DNA of 64,000 bases from assembly GCF_900100875.1 (NCBI RefSeq), contig NZ_FNKQ01000001.1, positions 930,001 through 994,000 of the forward strand. The letters are read 5' to 3'. Under the pieces are notes generated by a model, which was given only the letters and a program-made list of their open reading frames with translations, searched no databases and was not told the DNA's origin. The position numbers were made by a program, and so were the translations under genes. Shown in pieces: positions 47,419 through 54,698 of this stretch (its first letter is position 1; each line of letters begins with the position of its first letter). The stretch is from Halopelagius longus (GTDB taxonomy: Archaea; Halobacteriota; Halobacteria; Halobacteriales; Haloferacaceae).

Positions 47419-48108
47419 TTACTCTTCGTCGAGGGAGACTCGGTCCGCGATTTCCGTCTCCGGCGACGTGCGCTCCCAGTTCCGGGGGGCGTCGCCGCCG
47501 ACTTCGGCCTGCACCTTCTCCTCTAAGATGTTGACCGCGACGCTGTTTGCCCCCTCGGGGATGATGAGGTCGGCGTGTTTCTTCGAAGGTTCGATGAACT
47601 GTTCGTGCATCGGTTTGACCGTCGAGAGGTACTGGTCGATGACGCCCTCCAAGTCGCGGCCCCTGTCGATGACGTCGCGTTGGATGCGCCGGAGGATGCG
47701 GACGTCGGCGTCCGTCTCGACGTAGAGGCGCAGGTCGAGCATCTCGTTTATCTCCTCGTCGTACAGCGAGAGGATGCCTTCGAGGATGACGACGTCCGTC
47801 GGTTCGACGTGGACCGTCTCGTCTTTCCGGTTGTGGACCTCGAAGTCGTACTGCGGCATCTCTATCGGTCTGCCTTCGAGGAGCGTCGACAGTTGCTCGC
47901 GGAGCAGGTCCCACTCGAACGCCGAGGGGTGGTCGTAGTTGACCGACTCCCGTTCGTGCACGTCGAGGTGGCTCTGGTCCTCGTAGTAGTTGTCGAGCGG
48001 TATCCGCGTGACCGACTCACCGACGTTCTCGGTGATGAGTCGCGCCACCGTCGTCTTCCCCGCACCGGTCCCGCCGGCGATACCGATGACGAACGAGGGG
48101 ATGGTCAT
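47419..48108 (-). CDS. udk: Uridine kinase
   Basis: This 229-aa P-loop kinase phosphorylates uridine/cytidine in pyrimidine salvage. It starts MTIPSFVIGIAGGTGAGKTT (Walker A at about residues 11-18). Other marks are PLDNYYEDQSHLDVHERESV, NYDHPSAFEW, YDFEVHNRKDETV and VILEGILSLYDE. The start at 48108 is taken from the family N-terminus; a longer reading covers a promoter-like region and is rejected. Confidence 0.94.
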   Translation of the reverse strand: MTIPSFVIGIAGGTGAGKTTVARLITENVGESVTRIPLDNYYEDQSHLDVHERESVNYDHPSAFEWDLLREQLSTLLEGRPIEMPQYDFEVHNRKDETVHVEPTDVVILEGILSLYDEEINEMLDLRLYVETDADVRILRRIQRDVIDRGRDLEGVIDQYLSTVKPMHEQFIEPSKKHADLIIPEGANSVAVNILEEKVQAEVGGDAPRNWERTSPETEIADRVSLDEE

Positions 48109-48275: not shown

Positions 48276-48287
48276 AATTTTATAAAT
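48276..48287 (+). promoter_or_regulatory. TATA box of the permuted binding-protein gene
   Basis: The stretch taattttataaa is strongly A/T-rich and centred about 28 bases before the ATG at 48309, giving a leaderless mRNA. It is one of the strongest TATA elements in the window. Confidence 0.6.
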
Positions 48288-48308: not shown

Positions 48309-49661
48309 ATGGCACGTGATATCGTACGTCGGGACTTCCTGAAACGCATCGGCGCCGCGGGCGCCGTCGGAGCAGCGGGGCTATCGGGCTGTATCGGAAG
48401 CCCGGGAGAAGGGGGCACAGGCACTGGCACCGGCGGTGGCGGTGGCGGCGGAGACGGGCCGGAGGGACTCGTCGTCATCGGCTACCCCGAGAGCGGTATC
48501 CAGTTGTTCCGCGACTACTACAGCGCGAGCGACGGGGAGGAGAAGATTCTGGTCCCCGACGGCCTGCGCGACGGCGCGATGCCCGGACAGGTCGGAAACG
48601 ACATGGAGAACGTCACCGGCACCGCACCCGCCGCGGGCGGTCCGAATCAGGAGGCGTTCACCTCGATGTTCGAATCGGAGTACAGCAGTTCGCCGGGCGT
48701 CTTCACCGCGCAGTCGTACGACTCGGTCGCGCTCCTGTTGCTGGCGAACGCCGCCGCGGGCGAGAACAGCGGGTCGGCGCTGAAAGAGCAGATGCGGCGC
48801 ATCGCCAACCCCGGCGGGATGGAGGTCAGCCCGGACAACTTCGTCGAGGGGATGGAGGCGGCCGCGAACGGCGACGACATCAACTATCAGGGCGCGTCCT
48901 CGGCGACCAACTTCGACAAGAACGGCGACCCGGCCTCCGCGGCGTACTCCATCTGGGAGTTCGCGCCCGACGAGGAGACGACCACCGAGGTGGAGACGCA
49001 GAACTTCAAGGGGGAGAACCCCGAAGGTGCGGGCCCCGCCGCGGACAGCGCACCCGGCGGGTCGGACCGCGAACTCTCCGTCGGCATCCTCCTGCCGGAG
49101 ACGGGTGACCTCGCGTCCGTCGGCCAGCCGATGATTCAGGCCGCGCAGTTGCCGGTCAAGCAGGTCAACGACGCGAACCCGGCGGGCCTCACCGTGAACG
49201 CCCAAATCGAGGACACCCAAACGTCGCCCGACGCCGGCGTCTCGGCGGCGCAGTCGCTCGTCAGCGCTGGCGTCCCCGCCGTCTGCGGGTCGGCGTCCTC
49301 CGGCGTGAACGTCCCCGTCTCCCAGCAGGCGTTCATCCCGAACGAAGTCGTCGGCTGTTCGCCGTCCTCGACGGCGCTGTCGGTGTCGAACCTCGAAGAC
49401 AACGACTACATCTTCCGGACGGCGCCGTCCGACTTCCTGCAGGGCCGCGTCATGGCGCAGGTCATGTCCGAACGCCTCGGAGCGAGTTCCGTCTCGACGC
49501 TGTTCGTCAACAACGACTACGGCCAGCAACTGTCGGAGCGCTTCGCCGAAGTCTTCCAAGACGAGTTCGACGGCGACGTCTACCACCAAGTCGCGTTCAA
49601 CAAGGGCGAGTCCTCCTACTCGTCGGTCATCGAGTCCGCCCTGTCGCCGCCGGACAACTGA
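48309..49661 (+). CDS. Tat-exported lipoprotein, branched-chain amino-acid-type ABC substrate-binding protein with permuted order
   Basis: This 450-aa protein starts with a Tat motif (RRDFLKR) and lipobox LSGC (Cys28), then a Gly-rich linker to about residue 50. Residues 52-235 (LVVIGYPESGIQLFRDYYSA ... GASSATNFDKNGDPASAAYS) are the second part of a LivJ/PBP1 protein. Residues 256-450 (SVGILLPETGDLASVGQPMI ... YIFRTAPSDFLQGR ... GESSYSSVIESALSPPDN) are the first part. In normal members the order is opposite, and PPDN would continue into PEGLVVIGYPES. So the sequence is circularly permuted. The frame is intact. No partner SBP in normal order is seen in the window. Confidence 0.82.
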   Translation: MARDIVRRDFLKRIGAAGAVGAAGLSGCIGSPGEGGTGTGTGGGGGGGDGPEGLVVIGYPESGIQLFRDYYSASDGEEKILVPDGLRDGAMPGQVGNDMENVTGTAPAAGGPNQEAFTSMFESEYSSSPGVFTAQSYDSVALLLLANAAAGENSGSALKEQMRRIANPGGMEVSPDNFVEGMEAAANGDDINYQGASSATNFDKNGDPASAAYSIWEFAPDEETTTEVETQNFKGENPEGAGPAADSAPGGSDRELSVGILLPETGDLASVGQPMIQAAQLPVKQVNDANPAGLTVNAQIEDTQTSPDAGVSAAQSLVSAGVPAVCGSASSGVNVPVSQQAFIPNEVVGCSPSSTALSVSNLEDNDYIFRTAPSDFLQGRVMAQVMSERLGASSVSTLFVNNDYGQQLSERFAEVFQDEFDGDVYHQVAFNKGESSYSSVIESALSPPDN

Positions 49662-50610: not shown

Positions 50611-51366
50611 TTACCCGCCGAGGAAGTCCCTTCGGACCTGTTCGTCGCCGAGCAACGCGTCGCCGGTGTCGACGTAGCGGTTCTTCCCGTTCGCGAGGAC
50701 GTAGCCGCGGTCACAGCGTCGAAGCGCCTCCTTGGCGTTCTGTTCGACCATCAGGACGGCCGTGCCGTCGTCGTTGATGGCGTCGATGCGGTCGAACATG
50801 TCGTCCACCAAGTCGGGTGCGAGGCCCGCGGAGGGTTCGTCCAACAGGAGCAGGTCCGGTTGCAACATCAGCGCCCGACCCATCGCCAGCATCTGCTGTT
50901 GCCCCCCGGACATCGTGCCGGCCTTCTGCTCGCTCCGTTCTTCGAGGATGGGGAAGCGGTCGTACACCGCCCGCATGGCGTCCTGCGGCACCTCGTCGAG
51001 GATGTACGCGCCCATCTCCAAGTTCTCCTCGACGGTCAGGGAGGCGAACACGTTGTCGTTCTGCGGGACGTAGCCGATTCCTTTGTGGATGATGTCCTCC
51101 GGCGCGAGGCCCGTCACGTCCTCGCCGTCGAACGTCACCGTCCCGCCCATGTGGGCGGTGAGTCCGAAGACGGACTTCATCAGGGTCGATTTGCCCGCCC
51201 CGTTCGGGCCGACGATGGTGACGTACTCGCCGTCGTAGACGTCCATGTCCACGTCGGTGAGAATCTGTAAGTCGCCGTAGCCGGCGTCCAAGTTCCGCAC
51301 TTCCAGGAGCGACTCCTCCTCCCGCGGCGTCGCCTCCGTCTCCACGGCGGCGTCGTCGGTACTCAT
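50611..51366 (-). CDS. livF: Branched-chain amino-acid-type ABC transporter ATP-binding protein LivF
   Basis: This 251-aa ABC ATPase has Walker A VGPNGAGKSTLMKS, the Q-loop GYVPQNDNVFASLTVEENLE, signature MSGGQQQMLAMGRALM and Walker B LLLLDEPSAGLAP. The order and residues match LivF. It couples with LivG to power the LivH-LivM permease. It overlaps livG by 4 bases. Confidence 0.95.
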   Translation of the reverse strand: MSTDDAAVETEATPREEESLLEVRNLDAGYGDLQILTDVDMDVYDGEYVTIVGPNGAGKSTLMKSVFGLTAHMGGTVTFDGEDVTGLAPEDIIHKGIGYVPQNDNVFASLTVEENLEMGAYILDEVPQDAMRAVYDRFPILEERSEQKAGTMSGGQQQMLAMGRALMLQPDLLLLDEPSAGLAPDLVDDMFDRIDAINDDGTAVLMVEQNAKEALRRCDRGYVLANGKNRYVDTGDALLGDEQVRRDFLGG

Positions 51367-52232
51367 ACGTTCCCTCCGAGGTACGCCTCGATGACGTCTT
51401 CGTTCGCTTTGACCTCCTCGGGGGCGCCCTCCGTGAGGACGCGCCCCTGATGGAGGACGATGACGTGCTCGCAGTTCTCCATGATGAGGTCCATGTCGTG
51501 TTCGACTAAGAGGAACGTGTAGCCCTGTCCGCGGAGTTCGTGGATGTGGTCGAGGAGTCGCTTCTCCAGCGTCGGGTTCACCCCCGCGAACGGTTCGTCC
51601 AACAGGAGCATGTCCGGGTCCGTGAGGAGGGCGCGCGCCATCTCCAGCAGTTTTCGCTGTCCGCCCGAGAGGTTGCCCGCGTACTCCTCGGCGATGTGGT
51701 CGATGTCGAAGAAGTCCAGCACCTCCCAGACGCGTTCGAGGAGTTCCTCCTCCTGTCGGATTACGTCGTCGCGCACGCCGGGCGTCACCGACCGCCAGAG
51801 CGCTTCGCCCTGTTGGGCCTGCGGCGCGAGCATCATGTTCTCCAAGACGGTCATATCGCCGAGTTCGCGGGCGATTTGGAACGTCCGGACCATCCCGCGG
51901 TTCGCTATCCGGTGCGGTTTCATCCCCGTCACGTCCTCGCCGTTGAACGTCACCGTCCCCGAGTCGGGTTTCAGCATGCCCGTGATGAGGTTGAACGTCG
52001 TGGACTTGCCCGCGCCGTTCGGGCCGATGAGGCCGGTGAGGCTGCCGCGTTCGACTTCGAAGGACGCGCCGTCGACGGCGGTGATGCCGCCGAAGGACTT
52101 GTGCAGACCCTCGACTTTCAGCGGGTACTCGGCGGTAACGTTCGGGCCGGTTCCCAAGTCGAGGGACGGCGAACCGGCCGCCTCCGCGGCGTCGTCGGCG
52201 TCGGGTCCGCGCCCGCGTTCGGTCTCACTCAT
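51363..52232 (-). CDS. livG: Branched-chain amino-acid-type ABC transporter ATP-binding protein LivG
   Basis: This 289-aa ABC ATPase has Walker A GPNGAGKSTTFNLITGML, signature NLSGGQRKLLEMARALLTDP and Walker B MLLLDEPFAGVNPTLEKRLL, with the LivG-type extra loop. About 35 acidic, non-conserved residues precede the domain. The start at 52232 (MSETERGRGPDADD) overlaps the livM stop by 8 bases. A longer reading inside livM is rejected. Confidence 0.95.
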   Translation of the reverse strand: MSETERGRGPDADDAAEAAGSPSLDLGTGPNVTAEYPLKVEGLHKSFGGITAVDGASFEVERGSLTGLIGPNGAGKSTTFNLITGMLKPDSGTVTFNGEDVTGMKPHRIANRGMVRTFQIARELGDMTVLENMMLAPQAQQGEALWRSVTPGVRDDVIRQEEELLERVWEVLDFFDIDHIAEEYAGNLSGGQRKLLEMARALLTDPDMLLLDEPFAGVNPTLEKRLLDHIHELRGQGYTFLLVEHDMDLIMENCEHVIVLHQGRVLTEGAPEEVKANEDVIEAYLGGNV

Positions 52233-53595
52233 CGCTCTCACCTCCGTCGAACTCCGTTCGGCGTGCTGTCCCCTCGTCGGCGACACCTCCGTCTGATACG
52301 GCCGTTCGAGACGTCTCCGGCCGGGACAGCGAGATGCTCGCGGCCGTCTCCTTGCGGTGGCCCAGCAGGCCTTCGGGCCGGTTGTGCATAAGCCAGATGA
52401 GGACGAGTCCCATGATGACGAGTTGGAGCTGTCGGATGCTGTCGATGGTGTAGAGGACGAACGGAAGCGGGTCCAAATTCGAGACGAGCGGTGCCACCGC
52501 CGGTCCGAATCCGTTCGGCGCGTTCGCGTTCGGGAGGACCGTATCGACGAGGTTCTTGAAGTAGCGCGGCCCCTGATAGAGGACGGCCGCGAATATCGCG
52601 CCGCCGAGGACGCTGCCGGTGTTCGACCCCGCGCCGCCGATGATGAGCGCTATCCAGACGAAGAACGTCACGCGCGGGCGGAAGAAGTTCGGCGTCACCG
52701 CGCCCTGCGTCATCAGCCAGAAGATGCCGGCCAGCCCCATCAGGGCGCACCCGAGCATGAACGACTTTATCTTGAACTCGTTCGTGTCCTTCCCGAGGGA
52801 GTTCGCCACGTCCTCGTCCTCACGAATCGCCTTGAGGACGCGTCCGAACGGCGACTCGCCGGTCCGCTTCAGGAGCCAGTAGTAGCCCGCGACCATCACC
52901 AGAAGCACCGCGCCGTAGACGAGGCCGTCGACGACGGGTTTCGGATTGTTCATCTCCAAGGAGCTCCCGAACGCGCCGACGAAGCCGAGGTAGGCGTCCC
53001 AGAGGCCGAACAGCGAGAAAAACGCCCGAATCGGCCCGGTGTAGTTCAGGATGAGTCCCGACCCGCCGCCGAAGCCGACGCGGTTGCCGAACAACTGGAA
53101 CTGCTGGAACTCGCTCGAGAGGAACGAGAAGCGGACGATTTCCGACATCGCGATGGTGACGATGGCGAGGTAGTCCGCGCGCAACCGAAGCGCCGGTAAG
53201 GCGACCACCAACCCGAGGAGGGCGGCGGCGAGCATGCCGGCGACGATGCCGACGACGAGGGGGAGGCCGAGTCCGCCCACCTGCGCCGCGCCGCCGGCCT
53301 CGTACACCGGTTTCGAGACGAGCGCCATCACGTAGACGCCGACGGCCATGAAGCCGACGATGCCGATGTTGAACAGCCCGGTGTACCCCCAGTGGAGGTT
53401 CAACGCGAGACTGAGCATCGCGAAGACGCCGATGTAGAACGTCAGCACCGCGATGGTGTTGAGTTGGCCGCGGAGCGAGTAGCCGAGGGCGAGGCCTACC
53501 GCGACGTACGCGGCGTAGACGACGGCGAGTGACGCGAGGATGAGTCCCGCGTCGCCGCCGGGCACTCGGTCCGTGAAGTCTTCTGCGACGCTCAT
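52225..53595 (-). CDS. livM: Branched-chain amino-acid-type ABC transporter permease LivM
   Basis: This 456-aa membrane permease has about ten hydrophobic segments. LNLHWGYTGLFNIGIVGFMAVG and LRADYLAIVTIAMSEIVRF are typical LivM motifs, and the cytoplasmic EAA-like loop SPFGRVLKAIREDEDVANSLG contacts the ATPase. It is longer than usual because of an acidic C-terminus. It overlaps livH by 4 bases. Confidence 0.94.
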   Translation of the reverse strand: MSVAEDFTDRVPGGDAGLILASLAVVYAAYVAVGLALGYSLRGQLNTIAVLTFYIGVFAMLSLALNLHWGYTGLFNIGIVGFMAVGVYVMALVSKPVYEAGGAAQVGGLGLPLVVGIVAGMLAAALLGLVVALPALRLRADYLAIVTIAMSEIVRFSFLSSEFQQFQLFGNRVGFGGGSGLILNYTGPIRAFFSLFGLWDAYLGFVGAFGSSLEMNNPKPVVDGLVYGAVLLVMVAGYYWLLKRTGESPFGRVLKAIREDEDVANSLGKDTNEFKIKSFMLGCALMGLAGIFWLMTQGAVTPNFFRPRVTFFVWIALIIGGAGSNTGSVLGGAIFAAVLYQGPRYFKNLVDTVLPNANAPNGFGPAVAPLVSNLDPLPFVLYTIDSIRQLQLVIMGLVLIWLMHNRPEGLLGHRKETAASISLSRPETSRTAVSDGGVADEGTARRTEFDGGESDE

Positions 53596-54698
53596 GCCGT
53601 CGACCTCCCGCTGAAGAGCCCTTCAGGTTTCACGAGCAGGATGAGTATCATCACGACGAACGCCGCCGCGCGGGCGAACGCAGAAGGTATCCAGATGACG
53701 GACAGCGACGCCGTGAGACCGATGACGAGTCCGCCCGCGATGGCTCCGTAGACGGAGCCGATGCCGCCGAGGATGACCGCCGCGAAGATGAGAAGCAACA
53801 GGAGCCATCCGTCGTTGAAGCCGAGCGTCCCCTTCCAGAGGATGAACGTGTAGCCCGCGACGCCGGTGAGGCCGCCGCCGATGATCCACACCGACCGGAC
53901 GACCCGTTCCGTCGGGATGCCGGTGACGCGCGCGAGGTCCTCGTTGTCGGACATCGCCCGCATCGCCTTCCCGAGTTTCGTCCGCTGAAGGAGCAGGTGG
54001 ACGCCGAGCATCAGGCCGCCCGCGACGACGGCCAGCGTCAGGTCGTGCATGTTGATTCGGACCGCGCCGTCGACGAAGTACAGCGAGAACGACGGCGGTT
54101 GCGCGGTCGTCCCTCGCACGTCGGACCCGAAGACGAACTGCATCAGGTACCGGAGCGCGAAGGCGATGCCGATGCTGGTGATGAGAAGGGTGATTCCGTC
54201 CTCGTCCCGAATCGGACGGAAGACGGTTCGGTCGACGACCAACGAGAGCGCGACGGTGCAGACGCCCGCCGCGAACAGACCGAGGACGATAGCGAGCGGC
54301 GTCGACGTGATGCCGATATCGAGCGTCCCGCCGTACACCGACCCTCCGGCCCCGACGAGGAGGAGTGCGCCGATGTCGGCCCGCCCGAGTCCGGCGACGA
54401 GGTACGTCGTCGCCCACCCGGAGAACGCCCCGGCGGTGATGTAGTCGCCGTGAGCGAAGTTCGCGAAGTTCAGGATGCTGTACGTCATCGACAGTCCGAT
54501 ACTCGCCAGACCGATAACCAGCCCGCGCATGACCCCGTCCCAGACGAGAGACCCCACGTCGCTGAACGCGGTTCGGCCGGTCGCCAACCCGACGAGTAGA
54601 TCCACCGCCAACAGGACGGCGATGAACCCCACTGCGAGGGCGAACGGACGGTCCACCGCGAACCGGCGTCCGCGCGAGTATGTTTCAGCAATCCCCAT
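53592..54698 (-). CDS. livH: Branched-chain amino-acid-type ABC transporter permease LivH
   Basis: This 368-aa permease has many membrane segments, the LivH-type FAHGDYITAGAFSGWATTYLV and the ATPase-contact loop TKLGKAMRAMSDNEDLARVTG. Start MGIAETYSRGRRFAVDRPF at 54698. A Shine-Dalgarno-like GAGGA lies just upstream. It is the first gene of livH-livM-livG-livF-creatininase; the SBP gene is not in this operon. Confidence 0.94.
   Translation of the reverse strand: MGIAETYSRGRRFAVDRPFALAVGFIAVLLAVDLLVGLATGRTAFSDVGSLVWDGVMRGLVIGLASIGLSMTYSILNFANFAHGDYITAGAFSGWATTYLVAGLGRADIGALLLVGAGGSVYGGTLDIGITSTPLAIVLGLFAAGVCTVALSLVVDRTVFRPIRDEDGITLLITSIGIAFALRYLMQFVFGSDVRGTTAQPPSFSLYFVDGAVRINMHDLTLAVVAGGLMLGVHLLLQRTKLGKAMRAMSDNEDLARVTGIPTERVVRSVWIIGGGLTGVAGYTFILWKGTLGFNDGWLLLLLIFAAVILGGIGSVYGAIAGGLVIGLTASLSVIWIPSAFARAAAFVVMILILLVKPEGLFSGRSTA

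Follow-up and report, generated by a model that had tools for sequence, protein, structure and literature searches.

The gene at positions 48309-49661 on the forward strand of the 64,000-nt stretch of Halopelagius longus DNA analysed here (the window) encodes an ABC substrate-binding protein of the LivJ/PBP-type-I class (Peripla_BP_6, Cluster B, HAAT), in which the two halves of the chain do not follow each other in the usual order A-B, but in the order B-A. Most likely it serves the neighbouring LivFGMH importer as a lipid-anchored binding protein. Such genes have probably been permuted in place on at least three separate occasions in the Halobacteriales, with a second round of permutation in one sub-lineage.

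The gene forms a single open frame of 450 codons (450 aa), with the stop codon within the coordinates. Residues 1-28 (48309-48392, + strand, as are all parts of the gene) comprise a Tat signal peptide matching TIGR01409 and a lipobox recognised by eye (LSGC, Cys28). They are followed by a Gly-rich membrane tether (residues 29-50; 48393-48458), which was identified from the sequence and is predicted to be disordered, as residues 1-48 are the only ones with a pLDDT below 50 in the structure model. Based on Pfam and PDB alignments, segment B (residues 51-235; 48459-49013) represents the C-terminal half of a protein in normal order. A linker of 16-17 residues (residues 236-252, ENPEGAGPAADSAPGGS; 49014-49064) then connects the former C-terminus with the former N-terminus, and segment A (residues 253-450; 49065-49658), which represents the N-terminal half, runs up to the cut loop. 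The mature chain therefore reads B (51-235), linker, A (253-450). A TATA-box-like element, TTTATAAA (48279-48286, +), was read about 28 nt 5' of the ATG and a similar box lies at equal distance in relatives, a spacing that would suit a leaderless transcript. The uninterrupted frame, the Tat signal and the TATA box had all been pointed out in a preliminary description of this DNA and were retained, and its segment boundaries proved correct to within a few residues. In comparison with a relative from the same genus (L009), 32, 17 and 102 base changes were counted at the first, second and third codon positions; since 102 out of 151 are located at third positions, the frame is under purifying selection.

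Profile and structure-database alignments showed the exchange of the halves. The Pfam profile Peripla_BP_6 matched the protein in two stretches (103.9 bits), the best of which aligned residues 256-444 with profile positions 2-186. After the letters were re-ordered to A-B, a single stretch (4-313 against profile 2-311) with a score of 118.4 bits was obtained; both scores exceed the curated cut-off of 31.7. Likewise, residues 253-440 aligned with positions 5-188 of PDB entry 4gnr, whereas residues 113-165 aligned with positions 263-313, and re-ordering resulted in one stretch (3-313 against 7-313) with an increase from 58.5 to 65.0 bits. The first half of solved LivJ/LivK proteins pairs with residues 253-441, and a normal-order paralogue encoded in the same genome gave a swapped match as well, residues 246-443 of the query preceding residues 63-216. 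The single-stretch alignment after re-ordering, together with the match to the paralogue, places the swapped order beyond chance. The circular permutation proposed in the preliminary description is thus confirmed, as both halves map onto one normal protein in exchanged positions. Misassembly, which it had named as a possible source of this order, is ruled out by the presence of B-A genes in more than 100 assemblies, single-contig chromosomes among them. With purifying selection acting on the frame, the probability of a pseudogene or any other artefact is negligible. Because sequential profiles cover only one half at a time, annotation may miss such re-ordering.

Of the genomes sampled, 66 of 119 within the family and 87 of 245 within the order contain genes with B-A order, at 48-89% identity; named genera with such genes are Haloferax, Halobellus, Halogeometricum, Haloquadratum, Halorubrum, Halorussus, Haladaptatus and others. 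In a phylum-wide sample of 295 genomes, all 24 strong matches belonged to the Halobacteriales and none lay outside. The binding-protein gene occurs in one of three arrangements, namely A-B, B-A or a further order A'-B-A'' discussed below, and is convergent with livF-G-M-H in nearly every adequately flanked locus. In the window, the adjoining LivHMGF genes, which agree with the assignment of the protein to its class, are all located on the reverse strand: a livF-like ATPase gene (50611-51366; PF00005, best NCBIfam match LivF, below cut-off), a livG-like ATPase gene whose true start is perhaps internal (51363-52286; PF00005 and BCA_ABC_TP_C, best NCBIfam match LivG, below cut-off), and livM-like (52225-53595) and livH-like (53592-54698) permease genes, both assigned by PF02653 and NCBIfam. 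Upstream lies a uridine kinase gene (47419-48108, -; PF00485, NCBIfam above cut-off), which by synteny is the neighbour in several loci of both orders, i.e. the normal-order loci L038-L041 and permuted loci of the Haloferacaceae. As A-B and B-A genes share this locus beside livFGMH, they look like orthologues, with the permutation having taken place at the conserved locus.

Some loci carry peculiarities of their own. A creatininase-family gene (PF02633; 49756-50514, -) is situated between the permuted gene and livF in the window, and no PF02633 match was found at that position in the relatives scanned; it could represent a local insertion and could hint at the substrate. Tandem permuted genes at one liv operon were observed in Haladaptatus and in genome G147 (L123:3470-6281, L124:3458-6281, L125:4788-7613 and L065:4380-7192), which shows that the locus can duplicate. 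One copy of each pair in L065 and L125 was read without the lipobox Cys and may therefore be released instead of anchored. The permuted protein of Halorussus marinus (L126:4983-6308) also has a signal region lacking this Cys (GLAGQVGATASASQ), unlike most relatives. In L064:5670-7051 (G104), segment A is interrupted by about 1.4 kb of other DNA, possibly a mobile element, after which the rest of A continues in frame. The short genes L064 and L132 and the second copy in L075 do not represent new orders, but are due to this split, to a frameshift and to an assembly gap, respectively.

Three groups of permuted genes were distinguished: the main group, to which the gene of the window belongs, a Halorubrum-type group (L058-L063, L135-L137, L172-L175) and an f4-type group (L069, L168-L171). 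In every group the cut falls into one and the same loop, which leads from the helix around SSYSSxIExAL to the strand P(D/E)xLxVIGYP, and the linker measures 13-18 residues. The linker sequences themselves, ENPEGAGPAADSAPGG in the main group, ELSDEDESATAADPVGV in the Halorubrum type and GDDMPQPEPSGSGSD in the f4 type, are unrelated, with shuffle z values of 5.9, 8.8 and 8.8 within groups versus 0.9, -0.4 and 0.6 between groups. A single inherited permutation should share one linker, so this points to at least three separate origins. The order read in the window thus recurs in related genomes, in at least three lineages that share the loop and differ in the linker.

Since A and B can be put back into normal order before alignment, all forms could be included in one tree. 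This protein tree (79 rows) required five changes of order to account for the permuted genes, and forcing these together lowered the lnL by 70.9, which was rejected (AU p = 0.0012). The tree of the LivFGMH proteins, which is free of the permuted genes, recovered the same grouping pattern. In all AU tests the groups were chosen after being seen in the tree, and some branches are long. Under LG+G4 instead of a mixture model, the tests on LivFGMH rejected a single clade of all permuted loci (p = 6e-8), as well as the union of main and Halorubrum-type (p = 4e-7), of Halorubrum-type and f4-type (p = 0.00095) and of main and f4-type loci (p = 0.0002). Two loci could be placed less firmly: L070, for which membership of the main group is allowed (p = 0.073) and the linker is of the main type (z 4.5), and L068, which is excluded from the main group (p = 3e-5) and can be placed inside or outside the f4 type. 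Trees based on A only and on B only needed an equal number of order changes, and in both the main and Halorubrum-type groups kept the same normal-order neighbours, at modest support per half.

These data bear on three other histories. In the first, a single ancient permutation was undone several times, with different lineages returning to normal order. The identical cut loop in all permuted groups would fit this, as would the fact that re-permutation is real in this family: A'-B-A'' genes nest among B-A genes and have regained an A-B loop of native length. The unrelated linkers speak against it, and so do the normal A-B order of the wider family and the LivFGMH tree, which by the author's count would need about nine reversions instead of four to five gains; this history is considered unlikely. 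In the second, there was a single permutation, and its trace was extended or obscured by gene conversion or transfer involving A-B and B-A genes residing in one genome. Both forms do coexist in G054 (L036 with B-A, L057 with A-B) and in G078 (C1:1276854 and C1:2658041), from which it follows that they can work side by side within single genomes. However, the LivFGMH genes return the same groups, the two halves agree with each other, and exchange would not create new linkers, which makes this history very unlikely. In the third, A and B derive from two different paralogues by fission and fusion. While other proteins are recognised to have been permuted by this route (PMC3320104), the main and Halorubrum-type groups have the same relatives whether the tree is built from A or from B, on which grounds a hybrid of two paralogues was rejected, and free-standing halves were absent among the loci read; this origin is rated marginally lower still. 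Three or more independent permutations at a single loop are thus probable, and are favoured over one origin with many reversions.

In three metagenome-assembled genomes (L138:4818-6194, L139:4866-6197 and L140:4854-6197) the order is A'-B-linker-A'', where A' starts at position 39 of A and A'' comprises A 1-38. These genes had been taken for normal-order relatives until reading of their sequences showed a second permutation. They nest within the main permuted clade (support 100/99-100) and keep a main-type linker, which indicates a second round of permutation in a gene that already had B-A order. The second cut separates helix 1 from strand 2 of the first lobe, and the loop between A and B is back to its native length (SALSGDPDGLF). 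Among 394 genomes of the order, the only further case was G373, apparently the assembly of L140, as the matches are identical; L158 and L188 also appear to be recurrences of that assembly. Taken together, three or more independent permutations at one loop, each with a linker of its own, and a later one at a second loop in one sub-lineage appear likely. The first loop would then be an evolutionary hotspot, possibly favoured by the shift of the tether. As a candidate cause of such a hotspot, microhomology at the DNA level with the Gly/Asp-rich tether was considered: the cut loop forms a local peak with 8.95 of 15 bases matching (mean 7.67, sd 0.77), and other sites reach higher values.

AlphaFold2 predicted compact structures for both permuted forms, with a pLDDT of 83.8 and a pTM of 0.82 for the protein of the window, and 80.9 and 0.77 for the A'-B-A'' protein of L139. 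The two-lobed fold of the class is thus predicted. Foldseek aligned the B-A model to LivJ-type structures over about 197 columns, equal to one half, and the A'-B-A'' model over 337 columns (TMt 0.74); as the aligner is sequential, this coverage is what the chain orders lead one to expect. According to the family fold, the new termini should be adjacent. LivK residues align up to about 186-190, which, with the LivK lobe boundaries that we assume, would put the cut in the second lobe and thereby move the tether.

A scheme for origin and function can be proposed on this basis. One parental gene would have been re-ordered in place at its conserved locus, the old C- and N-termini being joined by a linker of 13-18 residues and the chain being opened in a helix-strand loop. 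Most likely the gene would have been duplicated in tandem and the copies fused, after which the first A and the last B were lost, as in the standard model of permutation (PMC3320104); intermediates of the form A-B-A-B or B-A-B were absent among 226 binding-protein ORFs. The two-lobed fold and the ligand cleft would be retained, while the membrane tether would hang from the second lobe instead. The motifs SPSST, GYP and DGL are conserved, and these we take to be positions where LivJ-type proteins bind their ligand. The lipid-anchored protein would most likely close on a ligand of the amino-acid or amide type and dock on LivHM, and the moved tether may bring a benefit.

Circular permutants found in nature tend to be old, to stand alone and to be distant from their unpermuted relatives. 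In the haloarchaea, the normal, permuted and doubly permuted forms share roughly 50-66% identity, occupy the same locus and accompany the same transporter genes, which makes the evolutionary record unusually good. With the three forms side by side at one locus, cause and consequence become directly testable. The series is a natural experiment on the tolerance of proteins to circular permutation and its evolution, which addresses the repeated use of one loop, the position of the tether in relation to transport, and duplication versus fission-fusion. The naturally evolved linkers and cut sites could also be used for binding-protein biosensors.

Among the closest known systems is TpMglB-2 (Tp0684) of Treponema pallidum, a natural permuted Cluster B binding protein for which a crystal structure and ligand binding were shown and a class 'Type Ic / Cluster Bc' was proposed (PMC4990184). 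Both are permuted Cluster B (type I) ABC binding proteins with an N-terminal membrane tether. TpMglB-2, however, is a bacterial sugar-binding protein, whereas the haloarchaeal protein is of the LivJ/amino-acid type. In TpMglB-2 the N-lobe is cut after the third strand, which moves about 100 residues, whereas here about 195 residues are moved by a cut at another loop, a difference from the Type Ic pattern. TpMglB-2 was absent from the PDB sequence matches of both the native and the re-ordered query. Circular permutation among ABC binding proteins is also represented by the glycine-betaine-binding proteins and their relatives, which belong to another structural class with members less than 24% identical and with apparently no syntenic series of orthologues described (PMC2395249). 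The LivJ/LivK-type Leu/Ile/Val-binding proteins (PDB 4gnr, 3td9, 4n0q, 1usg) belong to the same family according to Pfam and phmmer and, as modelled, have the same fold half by half, but carry their halves in the usual order. The DNA methyltransferases, another family giving rise to circular permutants, are explained by duplication with documented intermediates (as summarised in PMC3320104), in contrast to the 226 haloarchaeal ORFs. Among the open-access papers searched, none described permuted LivJ-type proteins or a site that had been permuted repeatedly. Permuted ABC binding proteins as such are therefore already known; the haloarchaeal case differs in family, domain of life and cut site, in having close syntenic relatives with normal order, and in its apparent recurrence.
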